Shown here: positions 21,482 to 40,958 of the stretch, one piece after another
Numbering within the stretch: position 1 is the stretch's first letter
How the letters are laid out: each line of letters opens with the position of its first letter
Assembly: GCF_024623785.1 (NCBI RefSeq)
Contig: NZ_JANKBZ010000003.1
Coordinates: 310,001-374,000 of the forward strand
Direction of reading: 5' to 3'
From: Archangium lipolyticum
Lineage (GTDB): Bacteria > Myxococcota > Myxococcia > Myxococcales > Myxococcaceae
Length of the DNA stretch: 64,000 bases
Translations under genes and position numbers: made by a program
The notes under the pieces: generated by a model
Seen by the model: only the letters and a program-made list of their open reading frames with translations
What the model was told of the DNA's origin: nothing
The model's database searches: none

Positions 21482-21782
21482 CACCGAGGATCTCCCGACA
21501 TGTCCGGGCCCACTGTACCTCCTCGCCCGACCGGACAGCAGGCAGCCTGTGCTCCGGGCTCCACCCCCCGCGAGCCCCTGGCCCCCTCCCCCGCCCGCCC
21601 GTCTGCCCGGCATGGAAGCCGGTCGAGGGAGCGGCCATTTCCGGCGGGTGTGCACCGCGCGGAGCCATTCCTAAGGTTGTCGGGCCAACAAACCGGACGC
21701 CTGGAGCGTTCGGAATCAACGCACGGTGAAAGACAGCGCCGGGGCATCGTGGCGCGCGACCTATAAGGGGCCGCCTTCATTT
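21482..21782. other. Intergenic region upstream of glgE
   Basis: About 300 bp between the divergent secreted peptide gene and glgE. It must hold the promoters of both. A TATAAG at 21760-21765 is a possible -10 close to glgE, but no -35 element fits it. No convincing coding sequence seen. Confidence 0.4.
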
Positions 21783-23783
21783 ATGAGCGAGCGAATCGGA
21801 AGCACGGTCATCGAGAACGTCCGGCCGGAACTGGACGCGGGCCGTTGGGCCGTGAAGCGGGTCGAGGGTGAGACCCTCAAAGTCCAGGCCGACATCTTCA
21901 AGGAGGGCCACGACATCCTCGTGGCCGTGGTGCGCTGGAGGCAGTCCGCGCCGAAGGACAAGGCGACGGACTGGACCGAGACGCCCATGGTCTCCAAGGG
22001 GAACGATCTCTGGGAGGGCGAGTTCCTCCTGGCGCGCAACGGCCGTTACGAGTTCACGGTCGAGGCCTGGCCGGACCTCTTCGCCACCTGGGTCACGGAA
22101 GTGAAACGCAAGGTGGACGTGGGCCGGGACGTGCGCAGCGAGCTGCTCGAGGGCGCCGCCATGCTCCGCGCCCATGCCGAGCGCGCCCAGAAGGCCGGCA
22201 GCGCCGACGAGGCCCGGCGCATGGTCGAGGCCGCCGCCCTCTTCGAGAAGGGCATGAGCGCCAACGCCATCGCCGCGGCCATGGATCCGGGGCTCACCCT
22301 GGTGGCCTCCAAGTACGCGGACCGCTCCATCGCCACCCGCTACGACCGCGTCCTCGAGGTCTTCGTGGACCGGGAGAAGGCACGCTTCGGCTCCTGGTAC
22401 GAGTTCTTCCCGCGCTCGGCGCTGCGCGACGGCCGCACGCACGGCACCTTCCGCGACGCCGAGAAGTGGCTGCCCTACGTGCAGTCGCTGGGCTTCGACA
22501 TCATCTACCTGCCGCCCATCCACCCCATCGGCCGCAAGGCGCGCAAGGGCAAGAACAACAGCCTCACCGCCACCCCCGAGGACGTGGGCAGCCCGTGGGC
22601 CATCGGCGGCCCCGAGGGCGGTCACAAGGCCGTCAATCCCCTGCTCGGCACGCTGGAGGACTTCCGCGGCTTCGTGAAGGCCGCCAACGCGCTGGGCATC
22701 GAGATCGCCCTGGACATCGCCTTCCAGTGCTCGCCGGACCACCCCTACGTGAAGGACCACCCGGAGTGGTTCCAGCACCGGCCGGACGGCACCATCAAGA
22801 CGGCCGAGAACCCGCCCAAGCGCTACGAGGACATCGTCAACTTCGACTGGCTGGGCCCCGGCCGCGCCACGCTGTGGCCCGAGCTCAAGTCCGTGGTGCT
22901 CCACTGGGTGGAACAGGGCGTGCGCATCTTCCGCGTGGACAACCCGCACACCAAGCCGCTCCAGTTCTGGGCCTGGCTCATCCGCGAGGTGCAGACCGTC
23001 CATCCGGACACCGTCTTCCTCTCCGAGGCCTTCACCCGGCCCAAGGTGATGAAGCACCTGGCCAAGGCGGGCTTCCAGCAGTCGTACACCTACTTCACCT
23101 GGCGCAACTTCAAGCAGGAGATGGAGGAGTACCTGGAGGAGATCACCTCCCCGCCCGTGTCCGACTACATGCGCGGCAACCTCTGGCCCAACACGCCGGA
23201 CATCCTCCCCGAGTTCCTCCAGCGCAGCGGGCCCGGTGGCTTCCGCCTGCGCGCCGCCATGGCCGCCACCCTCTCCAGCTCCTGGGGCATGTACTGCGGC
23301 TACGAGCTGTGCGAGGGCACGCCCATCAAGCCCGGCAAGGAGGAGTACCTCGACTCGGAGAAGTACGAGCTCAAGGCGTGGGACCTGGACCGGCCGGGCA
23401 ACATCCGCGACTACATCTCGCGGCTCAACGCCATCCGCCGCGAGCACCGCGCCTTCCAGCTCTACGGCAACCTGCGCTTCTTCCAGTCGGAGAACGAGCA
23501 GGTCATGTTCTACCTGAAGCGCACGCCGGACGGCTCCAGCCAGGTGCTGGTGGCGGTGAGCTTCGATCCCTTCCAGCCCCAGGAGTCCGTGCTGCACGTG
23601 CCCCTGGCGGAGCTGGGCATCCAGCCCGACGAGACTTACCAGGTGCACGAGCTGATGACGGACCAGCGGAGCCTCTGGCAAGGGCCCACCGCGCACGTGC
23701 GCCTCACGCCCGAACAGCCCGCGGCCATCTGGGCGGTCTACCGCTTCCGTCGCAGTGAACAGGCGTTCGACTACTACGAATAG
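21783..23783 (+). CDS. glgE: Alpha-1,4-glucan:maltose-1-phosphate maltosyltransferase
   Basis: 666 residues, GH13_3 enzyme that extends glucan with maltose-1-phosphate. An N-terminal beta-sandwich (to about 110) and helical insert precede the (beta/alpha)8 barrel. Family signature segments include DIIYLPPIHPIG, GRKARKGKNN, WFQHRPDGTIKTAENPPKRY and DIVNFDW; the nucleophile is the Asp in IFRVDNPHTKP and the acid/base is the Glu in FLSEAFTRP. The ATG at 21783 begins MSERIGSTV; an in-frame start 57 bp upstream adds non-conserved sequence. First gene of a complete glgE-treS-mak-glgB operon. Confidence 0.95.
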   Translation: MSERIGSTVIENVRPELDAGRWAVKRVEGETLKVQADIFKEGHDILVAVVRWRQSAPKDKATDWTETPMVSKGNDLWEGEFLLARNGRYEFTVEAWPDLFATWVTEVKRKVDVGRDVRSELLEGAAMLRAHAERAQKAGSADEARRMVEAAALFEKGMSANAIAAAMDPGLTLVASKYADRSIATRYDRVLEVFVDREKARFGSWYEFFPRSALRDGRTHGTFRDAEKWLPYVQSLGFDIIYLPPIHPIGRKARKGKNNSLTATPEDVGSPWAIGGPEGGHKAVNPLLGTLEDFRGFVKAANALGIEIALDIAFQCSPDHPYVKDHPEWFQHRPDGTIKTAENPPKRYEDIVNFDWLGPGRATLWPELKSVVLHWVEQGVRIFRVDNPHTKPLQFWAWLIREVQTVHPDTVFLSEAFTRPKVMKHLAKAGFQQSYTYFTWRNFKQEMEEYLEEITSPPVSDYMRGNLWPNTPDILPEFLQRSGPGGFRLRAAMAATLSSSWGMYCGYELCEGTPIKPGKEEYLDSEKYELKAWDLDRPGNIRDYISRLNAIRREHRAFQLYGNLRFFQSENEQVMFYLKRTPDGSSQVLVAVSFDPFQPQESVLHVPLAELGIQPDETYQVHELMTDQRSLWQGPTAHVRLTPEQPAAIWAVYRFRRSEQAFDYYE

Positions 23784-23798
23784 ACACCCTCGCCCTTT

Positions 23799-25456
<1,658 letters not shown>

Positions 25457-25460
<4 letters not shown>

Positions 25461-26794
25461 CGACGCCGATCGATCTGACCAAGCTCCCCGACTACCTCCG
25501 CAACCAGCGCTGGTTCGCGGGCAAGGCCTGGCCCATCAAGTCGGTCTCCGTGGTGGACCACGTCAGCCTGGACCTGCCCGGCGGACGCGCCTTCACCCTC
25601 GCCGTGGTGGAGGTCCACTACGAGCTGGGCAGCCCCACCCGCTACCTGCTCCCCGTGCTCGCCTCGGACGAGGGCGTGCAGGACGCCTTCGAGGACGTGG
25701 AGGTGCTGCGCGCCTTCTTCCAGCTCATCCGCGAGAAGCGGGAGATCCCCAGCGCCTCGGGCAGGCTCGTGGGCGAGTGGCTGGACACCCCCGAGGGGTT
25801 GATGGCCCTGCCCTCCCCCCTGCCCGTGCGGCGGCTGCAGGTGGAGCAGAGCAACACCTCCGTGGTGGTGGCCGAGAAGGTCATCCTCAAGGTCATCCGC
25901 AAGCTGGAGGCCGGCATCAACCCCGAGTACGAGGTGGGCCGCTACCTGGCGACGAAGACGTCCTTCCGCGCCACCCCCACCCTGCTCGGAGCGCTCCAGT
26001 CCGAGGGCCCCGCGGGCGCCACCCTCGCCGTGGTGCACCGCTACGTCCCCAACGCCACCGACGGCTGGCGCTACACGTTGGATCATTTCCGCCGCGCTCC
26101 CCGCCTGACGCAGGACTTCCTCGGGGAGCTGCGCGGGCTGGGCCAGCGGCTGGGCGAGCTGCACCGCGCGTTCGGCTCCAGCACCGATGAGCCGGCCTTC
26201 AGCCCGGAGCCCATCCAGACGGAGGATCTGCAACGCTGGAGCGCCTCCATGGTGGGCGAGCTGGGCGTCACCATCAACGAGGCCCTGCGCCAGTTCCCCG
26301 AGCTGGAGGGCAAACGCGAGAGCCTCATCGAGCACGCGAAGCGGCTGGCGCACGTATCCCCTTCAGGGCAGAAAATCCGCATTCACGGAGATCTGCACCT
26401 CGGACAGGTGCTCCGGTCGGAGGGGGACTGGCTCATCTTCGACTTCGAGGGCGAGCCGGGACGCAGCTTCACCCAGCGGCGGGAGAAGTACTCGCCCCTG
26501 AGGGACGTGGCGGGGATGTTGCGCTCCTTCGACTACGCGGAGGCCACGGTGCAGCTGGAGGGACAGGCCGCCGGCGAGCGCGTGGGACCGGCGCGCCAGG
26601 CCTTCCTGGACGGTTACCGCGGCGTCACACGAGGGGCCGCGTTCCTCCCGCAGGACGACGCGACCTTCAACACGATGCTTGACGCCTTCGAGCTGGAGAA
26701 GATGCTCTACGAAGTGCGTTACGAGCTACAGAACCGGCCGGACTGGGTGCGCATCCCCGTCCAGGCGCTCTTGAGGATGGAGGTTCGCAAGTGA
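25457..26794 (+). CDS. mak: Maltokinase (Pep2-type)
   Basis: 445 residues from a GTG that overlaps the treS stop. It phosphorylates maltose to maltose-1-phosphate with ATP, the substrate of GlgE. An N-terminal cap domain contains [11 protein letters not shown]; the kinase-like lobe has EQSNTSVVV, then [12 protein letters not shown] with the catalytic Asp and [12 protein letters not shown] with the metal-binding Asp, followed by [13 protein letters not shown]. These are the standard Mak/aminoglycoside-phosphotransferase-like motifs. The stop overlaps the glgB GTG. Confidence 0.93.
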
Positions 26795-28989
26795 AGAAGC
26801 CGATGGATCGGCAGCAGGTGGACGCGGAGTTGCAGCAGGTGGTGGAGTTGCGGCACCCCGAGCCCCACCGCGTGCTGGGCATCCACCCTGACGGGGATGG
26901 AATGGTGGTGCGGGCCTATCGCCCGGACGCGGTCTCCATCCACGTGGTGCCGGAGTTCGGCGGGCGCATCCCCATGACGCACCGGCAGGGGGGTGTCTTC
27001 GAGGCCCGGCTCAATGGCAAGACGGAGGCCTTCAACTACCTGCTCGAGGTGGAGTACCCCGGCAACAAGACGTTCACCCTGCGCGACCCGTACAGCTTCC
27101 TGCCCACGCTGGGAGACATGGATCTGTACTTCGCGGGCGAGGGCCGGCACGAGCAGCTCTGGAAGCGCATGGGGGCGCACCCCATCCACCACCACGGCAT
27201 CAACGGCGTGGCCTTCGCGGTGTGGGCCCCCACGGCCGCGGGCGTGTCCGTGGTGGGGGACTTCAACAGCTGGGACGGCCGGCTGCACGCGATGCGGCGC
27301 ATGGGCGCCTCGGGCATCTGGGAGCTCTTCGTCCCCGAGGTCGGCGAGGGCACGCGCTACAAGTTCGAGATCCGCCCGGGCGCCGGTGGGCGCCTCTTGA
27401 AGTCGGATCCGTACGCCTTCCGCACGGAGGTGCCTCCGGCCACCGCGTCGGTGGTGCACGACCTGAACCACTTCCAGTGGACGGACGAGCAGTGGATGAC
27501 GGGCCGCACCACCAAGAACGTGCACCACGAGCCGTGGAGCGTCTACGAGGTGCACCTGGCCTCGTGGCGGCGCGTCATCGAGGACGGAGACCGCTCCCTG
27601 TCGTACCGGGAGATGGCGCCCGCGCTCGCGGACTACGTGAAGCGGATGGGCTTCACGCACGTGGAGCTGATGCCGGTGGCGGAGCACCCCTTCGGAGGCT
27701 CCTGGGGCTACCAGGTGGGCAACTACTACGCGCCCACCGCGCGCTTCGGACACCCGGATGACTTCCGGTACCTCGTCAACTACCTGCACGAGCAGGGCAT
27801 CGGCGTGCTCCTGGACTGGGTGCCGGGACACTTCCCCCGGGACGCGCACGCGCTGGGCCAGTTCGACGGCACGGCCCTCTACGAGCACGCGGACCCGCGT
27901 CAGGGCACGCAGCCGGATTGGGGCACCTACGTCTTCAACTTCGGCCGCAACGAGGTGCGCAACTTCCTCATCGCCAACGCCCTCTTCTGGTTGGAGGAGT
28001 ACCACATCGACGGTCTGCGCGTGGACGCGGTGGCGTCGATGCTCTACCTCGACTACAGCCGCAAGCACGGCGAGTGGGTCCCCAACCGCTGGGGCGGCCG
28101 GGAGAACGAGGAGGCCATCTCCTTCCTGCGCGAGCTCAACGACACCGTGAACCGCAAGTTCCCGGGCGCGGTGATGATCGCCGAGGAATCCACCGCGTGG
28201 CCCAAGGTGAGCCAGCCCACCAGCGAGGGGGGCCTCGGCTTCCACTTCAAGTGGAACATGGGCTGGATGCACGACACGCTGACGTACTACTCGAAGGATC
28301 CGATCTACCGGCAGCACCACCACAACCAGCTCACCTTCGGTCTGCTGTATGCCTTCAGCGAGCACTTCATGCTGCCGCTGAGCCATGACGAGGTGGTGCA
28401 CGGCAAGGGGTCGCTGTACGGGAAGATGCCGGGAGACGCGTGGCAGAAGCGCGCGAACCTGAGGGCGCTGTTGGCGTGGATGTGGGCGCACCCGGGCAAG
28501 AAGCTGCTCTTCATGGGCGGCGAGTTCGGCCAGCCCGCCGAGTGGAACAATGACCGGAGCCTGGACTGGCACCTGCTGGGGGATCCGGGCCATGCGGGCA
28601 TCCAGGCGATGATGGCGGACCTGAACAGGCTCTACCGGAGCCACCCGGCGCTGTACGACGCGGACAGCGAGCCGGTGGGCTTCCAGTGGTTGCAGCCGGA
28701 CTCGGCGGCGGCGAACGTGCTGGCCTTCGTGCGGCGTTCGAGACAGCCGGGAGGCCACGTGGTGTGCATCGCCAACCTGTCGCCCGTGCCCCGCGAGAAC
28801 TACCGCGTCGGCTTCCCCCGGCACGGCAGCTACGTGGAGCTGTTGAACACGGATGCCCAGGACTACGGCGGCTCCGGCATCGGCAACAAGGGGCGCATCC
28901 ACACCGAGCCCCAGGGCTGGGACGGCCAGGATGCCTCGGCCGTGCTGACGCTGCCCCCGCTGTCCGTGCTCTGGTTCACCCCGGGGTAG
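26791..28989 (+). CDS. glgB: 1,4-alpha-glucan branching enzyme
   Basis: 732 residues, full-length GH13_9. Two N-terminal CBM48-type domains (to about 225; WAPTAAGVSVVGDFN is the CBM48 signature), then the barrel with DGLRVDAVASMLYLDYSR (nucleophile), MIAEESTAWP (acid/base) and LPLSHDEVVHGKGSL (transition-state Asp), and a C-terminal beta domain. It adds alpha-1,6 branches to the GlgE-made glucan. The GTG overlaps the mak stop and has GGAGGT upstream. Its 3' end overlaps the convergent gene at 28976 by 14 bp. Confidence 0.96.
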   Translation: MKKPMDRQQVDAELQQVVELRHPEPHRVLGIHPDGDGMVVRAYRPDAVSIHVVPEFGGRIPMTHRQGGVFEARLNGKTEAFNYLLEVEYPGNKTFTLRDPYSFLPTLGDMDLYFAGEGRHEQLWKRMGAHPIHHHGINGVAFAVWAPTAAGVSVVGDFNSWDGRLHAMRRMGASGIWELFVPEVGEGTRYKFEIRPGAGGRLLKSDPYAFRTEVPPATASVVHDLNHFQWTDEQWMTGRTTKNVHHEPWSVYEVHLASWRRVIEDGDRSLSYREMAPALADYVKRMGFTHVELMPVAEHPFGGSWGYQVGNYYAPTARFGHPDDFRYLVNYLHEQGIGVLLDWVPGHFPRDAHALGQFDGTALYEHADPRQGTQPDWGTYVFNFGRNEVRNFLIANALFWLEEYHIDGLRVDAVASMLYLDYSRKHGEWVPNRWGGRENEEAISFLRELNDTVNRKFPGAVMIAEESTAWPKVSQPTSEGGLGFHFKWNMGWMHDTLTYYSKDPIYRQHHHNQLTFGLLYAFSEHFMLPLSHDEVVHGKGSLYGKMPGDAWQKRANLRALLAWMWAHPGKKLLFMGGEFGQPAEWNNDRSLDWHLLGDPGHAGIQAMMADLNRLYRSHPALYDADSEPVGFQWLQPDSAAANVLAFVRRSRQPGGHVVCIANLSPVPRENYRVGFPRHGSYVELLNTDAQDYGGSGIGNKGRIHTEPQGWDGQDASAVLTLPPLSVLWFTPG

Positions 28990-33333: not shown

Positions 33334-36300
33334 TCAGAGTGGTTCCATGAAAGTTGGAGAAGACCCTTCGCGGATGTGACCGATCTCCCAGGGGGCGGCG
33401 GACAGGAGCCGATCCAGCGCGTGCTCCTCGACGTGCTCGTGCTGGAGTGCGTCGAGCAGCGCCCTCGCGACGTGGAGCTCGGGCGACTCGAGGCCGGGAG
33501 GCAGAGGGTCGAGGACCTCCCTCAGCAACCGCTCCGCGTTCCAGAGCCGGCCCTGCTCCCGCTGTAGCTGGAACAGCCGCAAGGAGGCCCGAAGCTCGAT
33601 GCACCGGGCGCCGGATCGCCGGGCGCACTGGAGGGACTCCTGGAATTCGTTCAGCGCCCTGGCGGTCTCGCCCCCGAGCAGCAGGAGCTCGCCCCGCAGC
33701 CGGTACAGCTCGGCCGCCTCGAGGTGCTGTCCCGTCCGCGCGCCCCAGGCCAACCCTTCCGCCACCGTCGTCAGGCCCTCGGAGATCAAGCCCAGCCTCG
33801 CGCGCGCATCCGCGAGCAGGCTCAGCAGGTAGGGCCAACCCGTCTCCGCTTGCATCTGCCGCAGATGATCAAGTCCCTCGAGCATCAGGGTGTAACCCTC
33901 GTCCCGCCGCGGGCCCAGCAGCACGAGCGCCCATCCCCGCAGGACGGGCATCCACGACTCCACGCGCAGCGACGGGTTCTGCTCGTAGACGAGGCTCTCC
34001 CGCTCCGTCACCGCGAGCACCCGCCACGCGTCGAACCGTGTCTGGTACAGCGCATTGGTCACGGTGCTGACCAGGACGAAGGTGTAGGGGTGGCCCAGCT
34101 GCTCGGCGCGGCGCAGCGCGCGATCACTGAGCCGCTGCCCCTCCCGCTGCTCGCAACGCAGGGTCAGGGCCAGGGCCGAATAGGCCAGGGCCATGGCCAA
34201 CGGATCGGGCTCGAGCATGCCGAGCGTCCGTCGTGGTGCCCGCTCCACGCCCGAAGCCCCCAGGGCCACGGCCTCGTGGAGCAGGGGCTCCGCCACGAGG
34301 ATCTCTCCCTGGATCAGGCGGATCGATCCCTCCATCAACCGGCCGATCACCACCAGTTGGGGCTCGTGGACGCGCTGGCCCAGGGAGACGATCTGCCCGG
34401 CCAGCTCGCAGGCCAGCGGGAAGTTCAACCGCATCAGGTTGCGGTTGAAGAGCCCCATGCTGGCCGCGACGAGGATGGGCTCGTTCCTCACGTCATGGAA
34501 GAGCTGCGCGATGCGCTCGTAGAGCTGCTCCACCTCGGGAGCCGAGTAGTTCCGGGCGGCGATCAGGGCCTGGCCGAGGAGCACCAGCAGCCGGAGCTCC
34601 TCCTCGACCCGGCGGGCCACTCCCGGCAGGCGTTTGAACAACCGCAGGGCCTGCTCCAGGTGGCTGATGGACTCCTCGAACGCCGAACGATTCAGGGCCA
34701 GCTCCCCGGCCAGGGCCCAGTACCGGATGGCGGGGAGCAGCTCCCCGGCCCGGGTGTAGTGGTGGGCGATCAGCTCGGGCGGAGCGCTGGGGGCTCCCGT
34801 CAGCGGGTGCTCCAGGAGCGTGGCGACCTGGTGGTGGTACTGCCGCCTGCGAGGCTTCACCAGGGACTCGTAGGCGGCCTCCTGGATGAGCGCATGCCTG
34901 AACTCGTAGCGGCGCTCCGGCTCCTCCCCGGTGCGCAGGAGCAATCCCGCCTCGACCAGCTCCTCGAGATCCCTCCTCAGGGTGGGGCCACCGCGCTCCG
35001 AGAGGGCCGCCAGCTGCTCCTCCGTGAAGCCGCGGCCAATCACGGCCCCCTTCCACGCCAGCTCCTTCTGCTCGGGAGGGAGCGGATCCAACCGGGCCAG
35101 GAGCAGCTCCTGCAAGGTGATGGGAAGCGCGCCCGCCGGAGTGCCGGAGGTGCCGCGCGTGAGCACCATGCGCGTCATCTCCTCGACGAAGAGCGGGATG
35201 CCCTCCGTCTTGCGCACCAGGAGCTCGATCGTCTCCGCCGGCAGAGGGAGCCGGCCCCCCGTGAGCCGCCGCACCATCTCGGCGGTCTCGTCCGCCCCGA
35301 GCCGGTCGAGCACGAGCAGGTGGAAGCCGGGATGCGAACGCCAGGAGAACCGCAGCTCGGGGCGGGCGCTCAGCAGCAGGAACAACCCGGTGCCATCGAT
35401 GAGCTCTCCCAGGCGCGAGAGGAGCCGCAACGTGGAAGGATCCGCCCAGTGCAGATCCTCGAGGACGAGGAGCAGTGGACCCTGTCCGCGCGTCCCGGGG
35501 AGCCGCGCCGGCAGCCGCAGCAGCAAGGTGGTCAGCGTCTCCAGGGTCTGGACCCGTTGCTGCTCGGGAGACAGCAACAGCGGGGGCAGCTCCTCGTGAG
35601 GAGGCAGGCCCAGGAGCTGTCCGAGCAGCAGCAGGCTCTCCGGCAGGGGCATGTCGAGGGAGCGCAGCACCTCCTCCAGGTGGTCCCTCCGCCGCTCGGG
35701 AGACGCCTCTGGCTCCAGCGCGGCCAGGTGCGTCACCCACTCGAGCACCGGATGGAAGGCGCTGCGGCTGAGCTGCGGCCAGCACTGGCTGGACACGAGG
35801 TGGCCTCCCTCGCGGCCCACGTGCTCGCTCAGCTCCTGGATGAGCCGGGACTTGCCGATTCCCGCCTCGCCGCTGAGCAGCACCACCGTGCCCTGTCCCC
35901 GCCGGGCCTCCTCCCACCAGCCGAAGAGCTGGCGGAGCTCCGTGCTCCGGCCCACCAGCGGCGTGAGGCCCCGGGCCAGCGCCCGTTCGAAGCGGGTGGT
36001 CTCCGGCCTCTCGGCCCTCAACCGGTGGACCCCCACCCGCATCGGCCCCAGCGACGACTGGAAGAACCGCTGGCCCAGGGGCTCCGTCACGAAGTTTCCC
36101 CGCGCGCCCTGCCAGGTATTCTCACTGAGATCCACCGTGTGGGGTTCCGCCTGCCTCGCCAGCCATCTCGCCAGGTGGGGCGCCTCGCTCCGGATGGAGG
36201 GCGGATGTCCTCTCGGCGTGGAGGGATCGGACGCGTCCAGCACCACCAGATCCGTATGCACGCCCACCTGGACCGCGAGCCCGGCCTGGAAGGCCCCCGG

Positions 36301-37527
36301 CAACTCCTCCACCATCCGCGTGAGGGCGAGCGCGGCACGCACCGCGCACACGACGTCATCCTCCCGGACCAGGGGATAGCCGAAGCAGCCCAGCACCTCG
36401 TCGCCCATGCGGAGCGCGACCCAGCCCCCGTGCCGCTCGAGGATGCGCGAGCAGACCTGGTGGAACGCCGCCTGCACGTCGCTCAGGTCCTCCGGATCCA
36501 GGGACGCCAGGTGCCCCACGAGCCGGACGCACACCAGCGTCAGCTGCCGGCGGTGGGGCGTGAAGCGCGGAGGCGGCGCCTCGTCCGAGGGGGCCAAGCT
36601 CCACTCCAACACCCGCAGCCGCTCATGCATCTCCAGCGCGCTCTGGAAGCGCCGGGAGGGAGCCTTGGCCAGCGCCCGTGCCAGGAACCGGTCCACCGTC
36701 TCGGGCAGATCCGGGCGGCGGATGCGCACCGACGGCACGGGCTCGGCCGAGAGCACGCCCTTGCGGAGCGTCCGGAGGTTCCCCGGGGAATAGGGCAGCT
36801 CCCCGGTGAGCATCTGGTACAGCAACAGCCCGGCCGCCCAGGTGTCGGTGCGCATGTCCTGCGGCTGCCCCCGCCATTGCTCCGGAGCCATGAAGGCGGG
36901 CGTGCCCGATTTCAACAGGTCGAACCCGAGCGAGGAGGCCAACCCACCCAGGCCGAAGTCGAGGAGCTTCACCCGCCCATCCGGCAGGAGGAAGACATTG
37001 CTCGGCTTGAGATCCCGATGGAGGACCTGACGCGAGTGGGCATGCGCCAGCCCGGCCGTGACGTCGCTCAGGATGTGCAGGGCCCGCCGAGGCTCCAGCG
37101 CGCCGCGCCGCAGCAGTGTGTCGAGCGACTGTCCCTCCAGGTACTCCATGATGAGGAAGGGAGTGCCCTTCCACTCGGAGACATCGAAGATGCGGACGAT
37201 GTTCTCGTGATCCAGCTGGGCGACGAGCCGGGCCTCCTCCTGGATCAGCCGGTCCAGCGACTCCTGGGTGAGCTCCCGGCCCGAGGAGATGAACTTGAGC
37301 GCCACGATGCGCTGCAGCAGCTCGTCACGGGCACGGAAGACCAGCCCCATGCCCCCCTTGCCGAGCTTCCCGAGGATCTCGAACCGCCTGCCATCCCGTC
37401 CTCCGAGGCGCTCTCCTGACCGGGGAGCCGGCAGGGACAGGGAGAAGCGGCTCACCTCGCGCAGGAAGGGGTCCTCGAAGTCGGACTCCAACGGGCTCCC
37501 CTGGCTGTCCTTGTCGTGCCGGGTCAT
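33334..37527 (-). CDS. Ser/Thr kinase - cyclase-like - STAND ATPase - TPR regulator
   Basis: 1397 residues from the ATG at 37527 (GAGG upstream). Domain order: Hanks-type kinase (about 48-310) with GKGGMG, ALKF, HRDLKPSN and DFG all intact; a class III cyclase-like domain (about 325-520) keeping RMGDEVLGCFGYP but with CVRLVG where the first metal-binding Asp of active cyclases is expected; an AAA/STAND ATPase with Walker A LLSGEAGIGKS (about 560); and a long helical TPR-like tail. This layout is known from bacterial kinase/cyclase fusion regulators. Probably a cytoplasmic signalling hub. First gene of the minus-strand unit containing the FAD oxidase and patatin. Confidence 0.88.
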   Translation of the reverse strand: MTRHDKDSQGSPLESDFEDPFLREVSRFSLSLPAPRSGERLGGRDGRRFEILGKLGKGGMGLVFRARDELLQRIVALKFISSGRELTQESLDRLIQEEARLVAQLDHENIVRIFDVSEWKGTPFLIMEYLEGQSLDTLLRRGALEPRRALHILSDVTAGLAHAHSRQVLHRDLKPSNVFLLPDGRVKLLDFGLGGLASSLGFDLLKSGTPAFMAPEQWRGQPQDMRTDTWAAGLLLYQMLTGELPYSPGNLRTLRKGVLSAEPVPSVRIRRPDLPETVDRFLARALAKAPSRRFQSALEMHERLRVLEWSLAPSDEAPPPRFTPHRRQLTLVCVRLVGHLASLDPEDLSDVQAAFHQVCSRILERHGGWVALRMGDEVLGCFGYPLVREDDVVCAVRAALALTRMVEELPGAFQAGLAVQVGVHTDLVVLDASDPSTPRGHPPSIRSEAPHLARWLARQAEPHTVDLSENTWQGARGNFVTEPLGQRFFQSSLGPMRVGVHRLRAERPETTRFERALARGLTPLVGRSTELRQLFGWWEEARRGQGTVVLLSGEAGIGKSRLIQELSEHVGREGGHLVSSQCWPQLSRSAFHPVLEWVTHLAALEPEASPERRRDHLEEVLRSLDMPLPESLLLLGQLLGLPPHEELPPLLLSPEQQRVQTLETLTTLLLRLPARLPGTRGQGPLLLVLEDLHWADPSTLRLLSRLGELIDGTGLFLLLSARPELRFSWRSHPGFHLLVLDRLGADETAEMVRRLTGGRLPLPAETIELLVRKTEGIPLFVEEMTRMVLTRGTSGTPAGALPITLQELLLARLDPLPPEQKELAWKGAVIGRGFTEEQLAALSERGGPTLRRDLEELVEAGLLLRTGEEPERRYEFRHALIQEAAYESLVKPRRRQYHHQVATLLEHPLTGAPSAPPELIAHHYTRAGELLPAIRYWALAGELALNRSAFEESISHLEQALRLFKRLPGVARRVEEELRLLVLLGQALIAARNYSAPEVEQLYERIAQLFHDVRNEPILVAASMGLFNRNLMRLNFPLACELAGQIVSLGQRVHEPQLVVIGRLMEGSIRLIQGEILVAEPLLHEAVALGASGVERAPRRTLGMLEPDPLAMALAYSALALTLRCEQREGQRLSDRALRRAEQLGHPYTFVLVSTVTNALYQTRFDAWRVLAVTERESLVYEQNPSLRVESWMPVLRGWALVLLGPRRDEGYTLMLEGLDHLRQMQAETGWPYLLSLLADARARLGLISEGLTTVAEGLAWGARTGQHLEAAELYRLRGELLLLGGETARALNEFQESLQCARRSGARCIELRASLRLFQLQREQGRLWNAERLLREVLDPLPPGLESPELHVARALLDALQHEHVEEHALDRLLSAAPWEIGHIREGSSPTFMEPL

Positions 37528-37651
37528 GGCCACCCTCAGGGAAATACGATGAGGACCCCCGGCCCGGATGACACACTCCGAGCGAGGCCCCTCACCGCCC
37601 TTCCCACGGGAGGGACTCCGAGCGCCCGCTCCCCTGCCCGCGCACCTGGGC

Positions 37652-38680
37652 TCAGGCCACGTTCGCCAGCGCCGAGCACCGGCGCCGTGAACCCAGCTCG
37701 GACAGCGTGCGCAGCGTGCCCGGCATCTCCTGGCCGGGCGCCCTGCCCCGCCGCAGCGAGACGAGCGTCGTCCCGCGCCGTCCCGCCCGCTCCATGCACG
37801 ACTCCAGCGAGTGCTTCACCAGCGGGTGCGGGCTGACCTCCAGGAAGACGTCGTGCCCCGCACCGAGCAGCACATCCACCGCCTCGCGGAACAGCACCGG
37901 CTCGGCCAGGTTGCGCACCCAGTAGTCCGCATCGAAGCGCTCTCCCGGGAGCCCACCGCCCGTCACCGTCGAGATCACCGGCAGCAGCCCCGGGCCGGGG
38001 CGCAGCTCCCCGAGCAGCCCGCGCAGCTCACCCCGGAGCGGATCCACCTTCGGCCAGTGCGCCGCCACCTCCGAGTCGACACGCCGGGCGGGCACGCCCT
38101 CGCGCCGCAGCACCACCAGCACCTGTTCCAAAACCTCCGGCTCCGCGGCCAGCACCGTCCACTCGGGGCTCGCGTGGATGGCCCGCCACACCCGGCCCTC
38201 GAACCCGGGCAGCGCCTCGCCGGCCCGCGCCCACGGCACGCCCACCACCGCCATGGCCCCCTGCCCCCGCAGGCGCCCGATGGTGCGGCCCTGGTGGCAG
38301 ATGACGCGCATCGCATCCTCCAACGAGAGCACCCCCGCCACGTGCGCCGCCGCCACCTCGCCGATGCTGTGCCCCACCACCGCCGCCGGCTCCACGCCCC
38401 ACGAGCGCCACAGCGCCGCCAGCGCGATCTCCACCGCCACGATGGCCGGGCAGCTCACCTCGATGTCGCCCAGGCGCGCTCCCTCCGCCGTCAGCGCCTC
38501 CCGCAGGGACCAGCCCATGTGCCGCCGCACCTCGGCCTCGCAGGCCTCCAGCACCGGGGCGCACACGGGAGACTCCCACAGCGCCCGCCCCATGCCCGTC
38601 CACTGCGAGCCCTGGCCGGAGAAGACGAAGACCGGCCGGCACGGGCCCTCGTCCCGGTCCGTCTGATCCTCGTGACGCAT
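37652..38680 (-). CDS. Stand-alone polyketide-synthase-type acyltransferase
   Basis: 342 residues from the ATG at 38680, preceded by GAGGAG seven bases upstream (an in-frame ATG at 38707 lacks such a site). The whole protein is one FabD/AT fold: FSGQGSQWTGMGR, GHSIGEVAAAHVAG with nucleophile Ser105, and AAHWPKVDPL with catalytic His208. The Arg that normally binds the extender-unit carboxylate (R-S/G after the VIC stretch) is Gln130 here. The residues before His208 read VAA, unlike the common malonyl (HAFH) or methylmalonyl (YASH) patterns. No PKS modules lie nearby, so it would have to act in trans. Confidence 0.85.
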   Translation of the reverse strand: MRHEDQTDRDEGPCRPVFVFSGQGSQWTGMGRALWESPVCAPVLEACEAEVRRHMGWSLREALTAEGARLGDIEVSCPAIVAVEIALAALWRSWGVEPAAVVGHSIGEVAAAHVAGVLSLEDAMRVICHQGRTIGRLRGQGAMAVVGVPWARAGEALPGFEGRVWRAIHASPEWTVLAAEPEVLEQVLVVLRREGVPARRVDSEVAAHWPKVDPLRGELRGLLGELRPGPGLLPVISTVTGGGLPGERFDADYWVRNLAEPVLFREAVDVLLGAGHDVFLEVSPHPLVKHSLESCMERAGRRGTTLVSLRRGRAPGQEMPGTLRTLSELGSRRRCSALANVA

Positions 38681-38778
38681 CAGGGACTCCTCGACGGTCC
38701 GCCGCATGCCCCACTCCCGCGCTGGGACTCGTCCTGCCCCGCACCCGAGCGGTCTCGGACAGTCCCGTCAAATCTCTA

Positions 38779-38815
38779 CAACACTGTTGGACATACTAAC
38801 CGTTTTTTCCTGAGA
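38779..38815 (-). promoter_or_regulatory. Putative acyltransferase promoter/operator region
   Basis: In the divergent gap upstream of the acyltransferase, the perfect inverted repeat CAACA-C-TGTTG (38779-38789) lies just downstream of a possible minus-strand -10 TAGTAT preceded by TTCACT at 16-bp spacing. The region is AT-rich compared with its surroundings (a TTTTTT run nearby). The palindrome could be a repressor site; the promoter match is weak. Confidence 0.3.
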
Positions 38816-38897
38816 GTGAAGCGGAACCCCGGGCAACGGATTAAGTCCCTCTTTGGAGACCCCCGACTGGCGACGGGAGGGGTGAACGTCCTAGCAT

Positions 38898-40958
38898 GTG
38901 CGCCATCTCATGCCCCCGGTTCGTCATCATCTGCTCGGTCCCCTCGTCCCGGGTGAAGGCTCCCGCCCGTTCCTCGCGCTGGCCCTCGAGGAGGGTAGAC
39001 CTCCCCTTCCCGTCGTCCTCGTCTGGGCCCCACCGGAGGTCACGCGGGATCCGGTACTGCTGACCAAGCTCGAGCGGGAGACGCAGCGCGCCACGATCTT
39101 CGATCACCCCAACATCCTCCGGGTGCACGGGCTGGTGACGCTGGAGAGCCGGATCGCCCGGGTGACGGAGTACGCGGACGGAGAGCCCCTTCGCAAGGTG
39201 TTGGAGGTGGCCCATCGCCTGCCGGCCCCCTTCGCCGCGCTCGTGGTCGCCGACGTGGCGATGGGGGTGCATTACGCCCACGTCGCGGGGAGCGATGACG
39301 GCACCCCGCTGATCCACGGAGACTTGCGCCCGGAGACGGTGATGGTCTCCTTCAGCGGCGTGTGCAAGGTGTCTGGCTATGGGGCGCTGAGCGTGGCGCC
39401 GCAGGAGCGCAACATCCTGCGCAAGCGTAACCAGCGCCTCTACAGCGCCCCCGAGCAGCTCATGGGAGGCCGGGCGGCCTCCTCGGTGCTGACGGATGTG
39501 TTCCTGCTCGGCTTGCTGCTGTACGAGTGCCTCTCGGGGCGCAGGCCGTTCCAGGACTCGCTGGAGCCGGACAAGGCCATCCTCAACCGCCCGCTGCCGC
39601 CCCTGCCGGTGGAAGTGCCGGCCGTGCTCAATGACGTGGTGCGCCGCGCCACGGCGAAGCGCGCCGATCAGCGCTACCCGAGCGCCCATGCCTTCCGCGA
39701 GGCCCTGGTGGCCGCCAGCGGCGCGCTGCCCACCCCCGCCGCGTTCGCGGAGATGCTCGCGAAACTGCTGCCTCCCGACGGCGAGGCCCGGCTCGCCCGG
39801 AAGAAGCTGCTCGAGAAGGGACTGGCGGGGGGACCCATCACCCAGCCCGTGCCCGTTCCTGTGGCCGAGCGCATCACCCAGCCCGTGCCTGTCCCGGTGA
39901 GCGAGCGCATCACCCAGCCCGTTCCCGTTCCGGTGGGCGAGCGCATCACCCAGCCCGTTCCCGTTCCGGTGGGCGAGCGCATCACCCAGCCCGTTCCCGT
40001 TCCCGTTCCGGTGCTCGAGCGTGTCACCCAGCCGATGCGCGCCGTCCCCGCCGAGCGCGTCACCCAGCCCACGCCGGCCGTCGCGGACACGTCCCTCGTC
40101 GAGACCGAACGTGCCGTCCCGATCGCCGCCGCCCAGCCTCCGCCGGCCGTCGCGGACACGTCCCTCGTCGAGACCGAGCGCGCCATCCCGATCGCGGCCG
40201 GAGCGCCGCCGTCTCCAGGAGCGCCCGGGGCCGAGGCGGCCACCACCTCCTCGCGCGTGACGCAGCCCGCCGAAGCGGTGCCGCCCGCCGCGGCGACCCG
40301 GGCCGAGCGGACCGCCGCGCCCGTGCGCCCGCCGCGCGCGATGGGGCGCATCGCCATCGCCATCGGGGCCCTGCTGCTGCTGAGCGGAATTGGCGCCATC
40401 TGGAGCACCCGGCACAAGCCGGAGGTGCTCGAGGACGCGAACATCCCGGACCTCAAACCCTCCGTGATGCTCACCGCGGAGCCCGAGGCCCCGAGGGATG
40501 CCGGGGTGCGCGTGCCGAGCAAGGCCCCGGCGCCCGCGCCCGCGACCCCCTCGGTGACCGAGCTCTTCGTGAACCCCGACGTGGAGGTGTCCATCAACGG
40601 CCGGGCGATCGGCCGCACGCCGCTGACGGTTCCCCTCCCCCTCGGCCGTCACACGCTGACGTTCACCGATCCGTCGAAGAACCTGCGGACGGCCCGGATG
40701 ATCGACATCACCCACGACGGCACGTCGACGTTCCACATCCGCCTGGGCATGGGCTCGGTCCTGGTCCAGGCGCCCGCGGGGGCCCGCATCACCCTCGATG
40801 GGAGGGACGTGGGGACGGCGCCGCTCGCCGAGATGACGCTGTTCGAGGGTGTGTACGATCTGCGCGTCACCTTGAACGGGGACGTCTGGGAGAAGTCCTT
40901 CCAGCTGATGGGGGACCAGCGCCTGGTCTTCTTCCCCGAGTTCGACCCGGCGCAGTGA
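38898..40958 (+). CDS. PEGA-domain membrane pseudokinase with tandem-repeat linker
   Basis: 686 residues from a GTG (an ATG at 38910 would give 682; no ribosome-binding site decides). The N-terminal 275 residues follow a protein kinase fold, with IFDHPNILRVHG, LIHGDLRPETVMV, LYSAPEQLMGG and TDVFLLGLLLYECLSGRRPF, but the glycine loop is absent, the beta-3 Lys position reads VVLVWAP, HRD is HGD and DFG is SGYG. Catalysis is therefore improbable. Then come a repeat region (12-residue ITQPVPVPVxER units), a transmembrane helix (about 485-502) and two PEGA-type domains (VSINGRAIGRTPL, ITLDGRDVGTAPL) outside the membrane. Confidence 0.85.
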   Translation: MRHLMPPVRHHLLGPLVPGEGSRPFLALALEEGRPPLPVVLVWAPPEVTRDPVLLTKLERETQRATIFDHPNILRVHGLVTLESRIARVTEYADGEPLRKVLEVAHRLPAPFAALVVADVAMGVHYAHVAGSDDGTPLIHGDLRPETVMVSFSGVCKVSGYGALSVAPQERNILRKRNQRLYSAPEQLMGGRAASSVLTDVFLLGLLLYECLSGRRPFQDSLEPDKAILNRPLPPLPVEVPAVLNDVVRRATAKRADQRYPSAHAFREALVAASGALPTPAAFAEMLAKLLPPDGEARLARKKLLEKGLAGGPITQPVPVPVAERITQPVPVPVSERITQPVPVPVGERITQPVPVPVGERITQPVPVPVPVLERVTQPMRAVPAERVTQPTPAVADTSLVETERAVPIAAAQPPPAVADTSLVETERAIPIAAGAPPSPGAPGAEAATTSSRVTQPAEAVPPAAATRAERTAAPVRPPRAMGRIAIAIGALLLLSGIGAIWSTRHKPEVLEDANIPDLKPSVMLTAEPEAPRDAGVRVPSKAPAPAPATPSVTELFVNPDVEVSINGRAIGRTPLTVPLPLGRHTLTFTDPSKNLRTARMIDITHDGTSTFHIRLGMGSVLVQAPAGARITLDGRDVGTAPLAEMTLFEGVYDLRVTLNGDVWEKSFQLMGDQRLVFFPEFDPAQ
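39837..40022 (+). repeat. In-frame 36-bp tandem repeat
   Basis: Five consecutive units encoding ITQPVPVPVxER (x is A, S, G, G, and PVL in the longer fifth unit), with a degenerate sixth unit reading VTQPMRAVPAER. It forms the Pro/Val linker of the pseudokinase. Two units are identical at the protein level, suggesting slippage or recombination. A second duplication, PAVADTSLVETER, follows at about 40074-40130 and 40143-40199. Confidence 0.85.

Follow-up and report, generated by a model that had tools for sequence, protein, structure and literature searches.

The window analysed here is a stretch of 64 kb (contig C3, positions 310001-374000, of genome G000, which measures 12.6 Mb in 75 contigs), and it carries a lone PKS-type acyltransferase (AT) gene on the minus strand at 37652-38707. 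The earlier note had proposed such a gene at 37652-38680, and we find it to be real: the frame running from 38707 to 37652 has a GC3 of 0.95, stands alone in a frame of 371 codons and encodes 351 aa from its first ATG, or 342 aa from 38680, its second in-frame ATG. On the plus strand, 37652-38680 holds an unrelated frame with one internal stop. The start at 38680 (342 aa) is probably the true one, because GAGGAG, a probable Shine-Dalgarno sequence at 38687-38692 on the minus strand, ends 6 bases upstream of that ATG, and because the two residues that it encodes in the longer frame, E7-S8, hardly vary among orthologues while most residues before M10 do. Residues are numbered below on the 351 aa form, in which S114, Q139 and H217 correspond to Ser105, Gln130 and His208 of the 342 aa form.

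The sole Pfam match of the protein is PF00698 (Acyl_transf_1), at 244 bits over residues 26-320 against a curated cut-off of 32.7, which together with the catalytic Ser and His places it in that superfamily. Scores against the FabD equivalog TIGR00128 (103.7, cut-off 260.9) and against MdcH, TIGR03131 (82.9, cut-off 297.9), are far under the thresholds. The gene is also documented by at least nine stand-alone orthologues and by a structural model. Aligned beside AT domains of three related modules (the first ATs of G117, G118 and G130), the C-terminal stretch from S317 (37655-37759, minus strand) appears to resemble the post-AT linker of a PKS module.

The codon of the catalytic Ser114, in the motif GHSIGE, lies at 38366-38368, that of Gln139 at 38291-38293 and the VAAH specificity motif with the catalytic His217 (residues 214-217) at 38057-38068, all on the minus strand; all 10 lone ATs share Ser, Gln, His and VAAH without exception. 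The earlier note's description of the active site, with Ser105 and His208 intact, Gln130 in place of the arginine that holds the malonyl carboxylate and VAA before His, was thus correct in each respect. In alignments with four PKS ATs of solved structure (DEBS AT5, DEBS AT3, a spinosad-PKS AT and the mycocerosic acid synthase (MAS) AT), gap-free between GHSIGE and the next helix, Q139 falls onto their Arg, and no other Arg takes the carboxylate position, a possibility that the earlier note had raised. The spacing from S114 to Q139 is 25 residues, the same as from S92 to R117 in E. coli FabD in the relevant passage of PMC11775670. Opposite the nearby R141, the DEBS and MAS domains have the second basic residue of RSR/RSK and the spinosad AT has D, so that R141 is no stand-in for the carboxylate Arg. 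Gln for Arg in all ten proteins, together with the low FabD score, sets the lone AT apart from malonyl-specific ATs of the FabD and trans-AT kinds.

According to the earlier note, known ATs in which this Arg is replaced tend to accept non-carboxylated acyl-CoAs. Precedent comes from the eurocidin loading ATs (motif GAAH), which according to passages of PMC12843615 use short acyl-CoAs and not malonyl- or methylmalonyl-CoA; by analogy the lone AT may do the same. The Gln would also fit an editing enzyme, a stand-alone PedC/PksD-like acyl hydrolase that clears acetyl or wrong acyl groups off carrier proteins, one of the options in the earlier note: absence of the Arg is called diagnostic of trans-AT acyl hydrolases, which usually have Gln or His there (PMC11775670, in part). 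We consider such a role rather unlikely for the lone AT, in which the strictly conserved hydrolase Phe before His (same source, in part) is Ala216 in 10 of 10 and the nucleophile motif is GHS, hydrolases often having another residue before Ser. Moreover, an Arg to Gln variant of PedD took up acetyl and showed no hydrolysis in the part of PMC11775670 concerned, the lone ATs group with cis starter ATs in the tree described below, and the 64 kb hold no trans-AT PKS cluster, no KS or ACP having been matched there. The editing option is accordingly weakened by the Ala, while its fit with Gln stands.

The surroundings of the gene do not form a biosynthetic cluster. The absence of a PKS gene from the window, already reported from its open reading frames, extends to profile matches, since no KS, ACP or other AT was matched over 64 kb; neither a six-frame ACP-motif scan nor PF00550 gave a carrier protein in the window, and no carrier protein or acyl-CoA supply gene was found near the lone AT. 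An intergenic stretch (38708-38897) separates the AT from a divergent gene on the plus strand (38898-40958) that encodes a kinase-like protein with a PEGA domain, by Pfam; it adjoins the AT in this divergent arrangement in 10 of 10 genomes. The protein seems to be without the ATP-binding Lys and the DFG Asp and is presumably a pseudokinase. As an obligate partner of the lone AT it was rejected, being present without the AT in eight of the nine other genomes scanned. On the other side, a protein of 1399 aa (33334-37533, minus strand) has intact-looking Ser/Thr kinase, AAA and TPR regions and scores 554 bits with NCBIfam TOMM_kin_cyc, under the cut-off of 706; it adjoins the lone AT in 4 of 10 cases (G000, G001, G003 and G004, in 20 kb stretches). 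Glucan genes at 21726-28989 on the plus strand (by Pfam GlgE, a maltogenic amylase/TreS-like protein, a maltokinase-like protein and GlgB) also lie near the AT locus in several relatives.

Such a setting leaves room for a starter-type AT recruited to an acceptor outside PKSs; this might be AcpP, with branched-chain fatty acids or lipids as products, or else a protein, and the divergent kinase-like gene might exert control. The constant adjacency of that gene and the non-biosynthetic neighbourhood speak for this role; the many AT-free copies of the kinase-like gene, which make the pair non-obligate, and the lack of an acceptor candidate in the window by PF00550 and the motif scan speak against it, and we regard it as unlikely.

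The matches listed include stand-alone orthologues from 10 of 96 family genomes (2 of 26 genera) and from 10 of 195 phylum genomes (2 of 90 genera), the lists being bounded by E-value limits beyond which a more divergent lone AT could fall. The carriers are all six Archangium genomes and all four of a second genus. The orthologous frames have 366-392 codons and score above 630 bits; next in the list comes a PKS domain with 429 bits. Two peptide patterns were run over named genomes, a scan that possibly left out very near ones, and of the best matches at 79 loci the one in A. lansinium alone is stand-alone. Pairwise dN/dS of the lone ATs is 0.18-0.74 (Nei-Gojobori, 45 pairs), and these are upper-side estimates because a GC3 near 0.95 holds dS down. 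Moderate ratios of this kind might suggest an evolutionary leftover, a freed domain under weak constraint that has no present catalytic role; an intact frame and catalytic residues that are invariant in 10 of 10 proteins over two genera make this quite improbable.

The relatives of the lone AT are found in tandem AT-AT modules of myxobacterial PKS genes. Thirteen such pairs were compared, and the second AT carries the Arg in 13 of 13, the first in 0 of 13; rows with fewer than 200 aligned positions were left out of this motif survey and of the named-genome comparison. The site is Q in seven first ATs, Y in two, E, W and L in one each, and broken in one. The first ATs of L055, L060, L061, L063 and L064 have W, Y, E, Y and L there, respectively, and these variants offer a natural series for starter specificity.

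A FastTree phylogeny was calculated for 88 chosen ATs (chosen loci, with PKS domains of less than 65% identity and more than 240 aligned positions; SH-like supports). A clade of support 1.0 unites the ten lone ATs with 12 first ATs that belong to tandem modules and have Q, Y or E at the Arg site; Sorangium contributes two of the 12. Four first ATs (the ones with W and L, the Tyr-bearing one of G117 and the dead one) lie outside this clade. The tree places closest to the lone ATs two S. cellulosum first ATs, from So0157-2 (61% identity) and So ce26 (59%), both with Q and VAAH; the exact grouping of the lone ATs with these two has a support of only 0.24. The lone AT thus shares with starter ATs of the tandem type the non-Arg residue and the grouping with first ATs, and differs from them in not being a PKS domain beside an extender AT and a loading ACP. 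Genes for starter supply, sought by Pfam beside the relatives in order to name the acyl group, gave none that was informative: the near genes encode a metalloprotease and an rRNA methyltransferase (So ce26), a methyltransferase (So0157-2), and GGDEF and RHS proteins (C28).

An AlphaFold2 model of the lone AT (38 sequences, mean pLDDT 89.2, pTM 0.88) matches PKS AT domains, including the avermectin loading AT (PDB 4rl1) over the whole 318-residue chain with a TMt of 0.93, at rank 24. The top Foldseek matches are extender ATs, and therefore the fold alone cannot separate starter from extender. Because the lone ATs group with Arg-less first ATs while the second ATs keep the Arg, we read the protein, by its sequence, as a starter-type AT and not an extender AT, an editing hydrolase being less likely.

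In the single-contig genome G002, the AT matches listed (n = 17) comprise the lone AT, 12 further ATs whose nucleophile is intact and 4 fragments that derive from three broken ATs. All 12, FabD included, carry the Arg, so that of 13 intact ATs the lone AT alone is without it and, to judge by this residue, is the only starter-type AT of G002 among these matches. A candidate client was found at a distance, in the PKS of G000 contig C20 (111757-131578; genes g22, g23 and g24). Domain maps, drawn by motif and by eye and not by profile, read KS-AT°-AT-DH-ER-KR-ACP for g22 (C20 111757-119529), KS-AT-KR-ACP-KS-AT°-KR-ACP for g23 and KS-AT° for g24. The AT° of g22 has GHGVGE at the nucleophile (Ser to Gly), and about 76 residues are deleted between a point behind the Arg helix and one beyond the His, which is thereby lost. 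With this region as the query, 11 of 96 genomes scored more than 500 bits, namely the ten lone-AT genomes and G008, with 217 bits as the next best score; all 11 copies are dead in the same way (ten GHG, one GQG), and g20 to g24 are clustered in all ten lone-AT genomes. A related module in G117, G118 and G130, of another genus, has a first AT that is intact (GHSLGE and VAAH, with Tyr at the Arg site), and no lone AT was found in these three genomes among the matches listed. The G117 module has an N-terminal ACP that is absent from g22; G117 also retains its third-module AT and differs from C20 in downstream architecture, and therefore only module 1 is clearly comparable.

The later modules of the C20 PKS have truncated ATs that are without the catalytic Ser (L041/L042, G000:C20:124900-131578). 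Its last KS reads GYPEAA where GHxEAA is usual, and upstream of the PKS there is a gene for a CoA-transferase of family III. Elsewhere in G000, a genome-wide scan gave a protein of 2995 aa (L239:3457-12444, minus strand, contig C23) in which a KS and two ACPs were matched but no AT, possibly an AT-less module. Excision of the lone AT from the C20 PKS itself was rejected, since the dead domain groups with the G117 first AT and not with the lone ATs; the lone AT has 41% identity to it, against 58-61% to the closest other first ATs.

Modules with dead ATs would need loading in trans, and those of the C20 PKS could be invoked for a malonyl or methylmalonyl trans-AT that works despite the Gln. This is very improbable in view of an invariant Gln with no substitute Arg in the alignments, of Gln-bearing relatives that are first ATs of tandem modules, and of Arg in the other 12 intact-nucleophile ATs that G002 has, FabD included, among the matches listed. 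As a starter-type enzyme, the lone AT could tentatively be assigned the C20-type PKS as its client, from the dead starter AT and the shared genomes. Several observations count against the pairing. The two genera are related, so the ten co-occurrences may amount to one event, and other clade-specific genes would share the pattern. G008 has the dead AT and, among the matches listed, no lone AT; its draft, counted as a separate genus, is 86% complete in about 1050 contigs, and since it is so fragmentary and the kinase-like neighbour was also not found, its lone-AT locus may be unassembled. The C20 PKS has no N-terminal ACP and has further dead ATs, and therefore may be decaying or primed otherwise.

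Loading of a remote synthase in trans, as the earlier note had suggested, has thus gained a candidate (the PKS whose starter AT is dead, shared by the ten lone-AT genomes), its client role being tentative, and the tree and motifs favour a starter AT acting in trans among the three options that the note had offered. We consider it fairly likely that the protein is a free-standing starter-unit AT acting in trans on a carrier protein. What the sequence gives directly is the fold family, the catalytic residues, the Gln, the conservation, the placement among starter ATs and the dead PKS domain; we infer the activity, the acyl-CoA class, the transfer in trans and the client. The gene's ancestor would have been the starter AT, the first of the two, in a tandem AT-AT loading module of a myxobacterium, and the gene would now be a separate one in two related genera. 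His217 would activate Ser114, which would accept from acyl-CoA a short or branched acyl group that is not carboxylated, in a neutral, roomy pocket formed by Gln139 and the small residues of VAAH; the group would then be handed to the phosphopantetheine of a carrier protein whose gene lies elsewhere, the most likely client being the conserved C20 PKS with its dead starter AT. It is conceivable, at a similarly tentative level, that a PKS with a dead built-in loading AT is primed by a free-standing starter AT from elsewhere in the genome, a step from a cis-AT to a 'trans-starter-AT' line in which the gutted AT perhaps serves as a scaffold.

If the pairing is true, it would be a natural case in which a separate protein has taken over starter loading from a domain within the PKS, would illustrate how cis-AT synthases may start to lose their ATs, and would be useful for swapping the starter units of assembly lines without rebuilding them. 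A single-gene deletion could then tie the orphan PKS of two myxobacterial genera to a product.

Among the known systems compared, FabD (TIGR00128) and MdcH (TIGR03131) are likewise discrete ATs of the same superfamily, from which the lone AT differs by its low scores and the absence of the Arg. With the trans-AT acyl hydrolases PedC and PksD, in the passages of PMC11775670 that deal with them, it shares a stand-alone AT fold and Gln at the Arg site; it differs in Ala for Phe before His, in its GHS motif and in its cis-AT ancestry. Titles and abstract openings of the literature searched describe no stand-alone starter AT in myxobacteria. HedF is itself a free-standing AT gene whose relative, AT1-1 of Kid13, belongs to a dual-AT loading module. 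It speaks against a starter role in trans, as passages of PMC10646177 report HedF without a part in chain initiation; unlike the lone AT, HedF sits in the hedamycin cluster and has the QAFH motif common to AT1-1 (PMC10646177, in part). The loading ATs of eurocidin and rimocidin, as far as the passages of PMC12843615 describe them, are starter ATs for acyl-CoAs and not for malonyl-CoA, and the eurocidin GAAH resembles the VAAH of the lone AT, whereas they act in cis in polyene PKSs and stem from a clade of extender ATs. With the avermectin loading AT (4rl1, its loading function taken from the entry title), the lone AT shares the AT fold over the whole chain at 35% identity; the avermectin AT, unlike the lone AT, forms part of a loading didomain of an actinomycete. 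For ajudazol, aurafuron, chondramide and gulmirecin, parts of PMC10646177 describe loading modules with two ATs and an N-terminal ACP. The first ATs of myxobacterial tandem modules share with the lone AT a non-Arg residue at the site, a VAxH motif, 46-61% identity and membership of one clade; they are PKS domains with an N-terminal ACP, whereas the lone AT is a separate gene far from any PKS.
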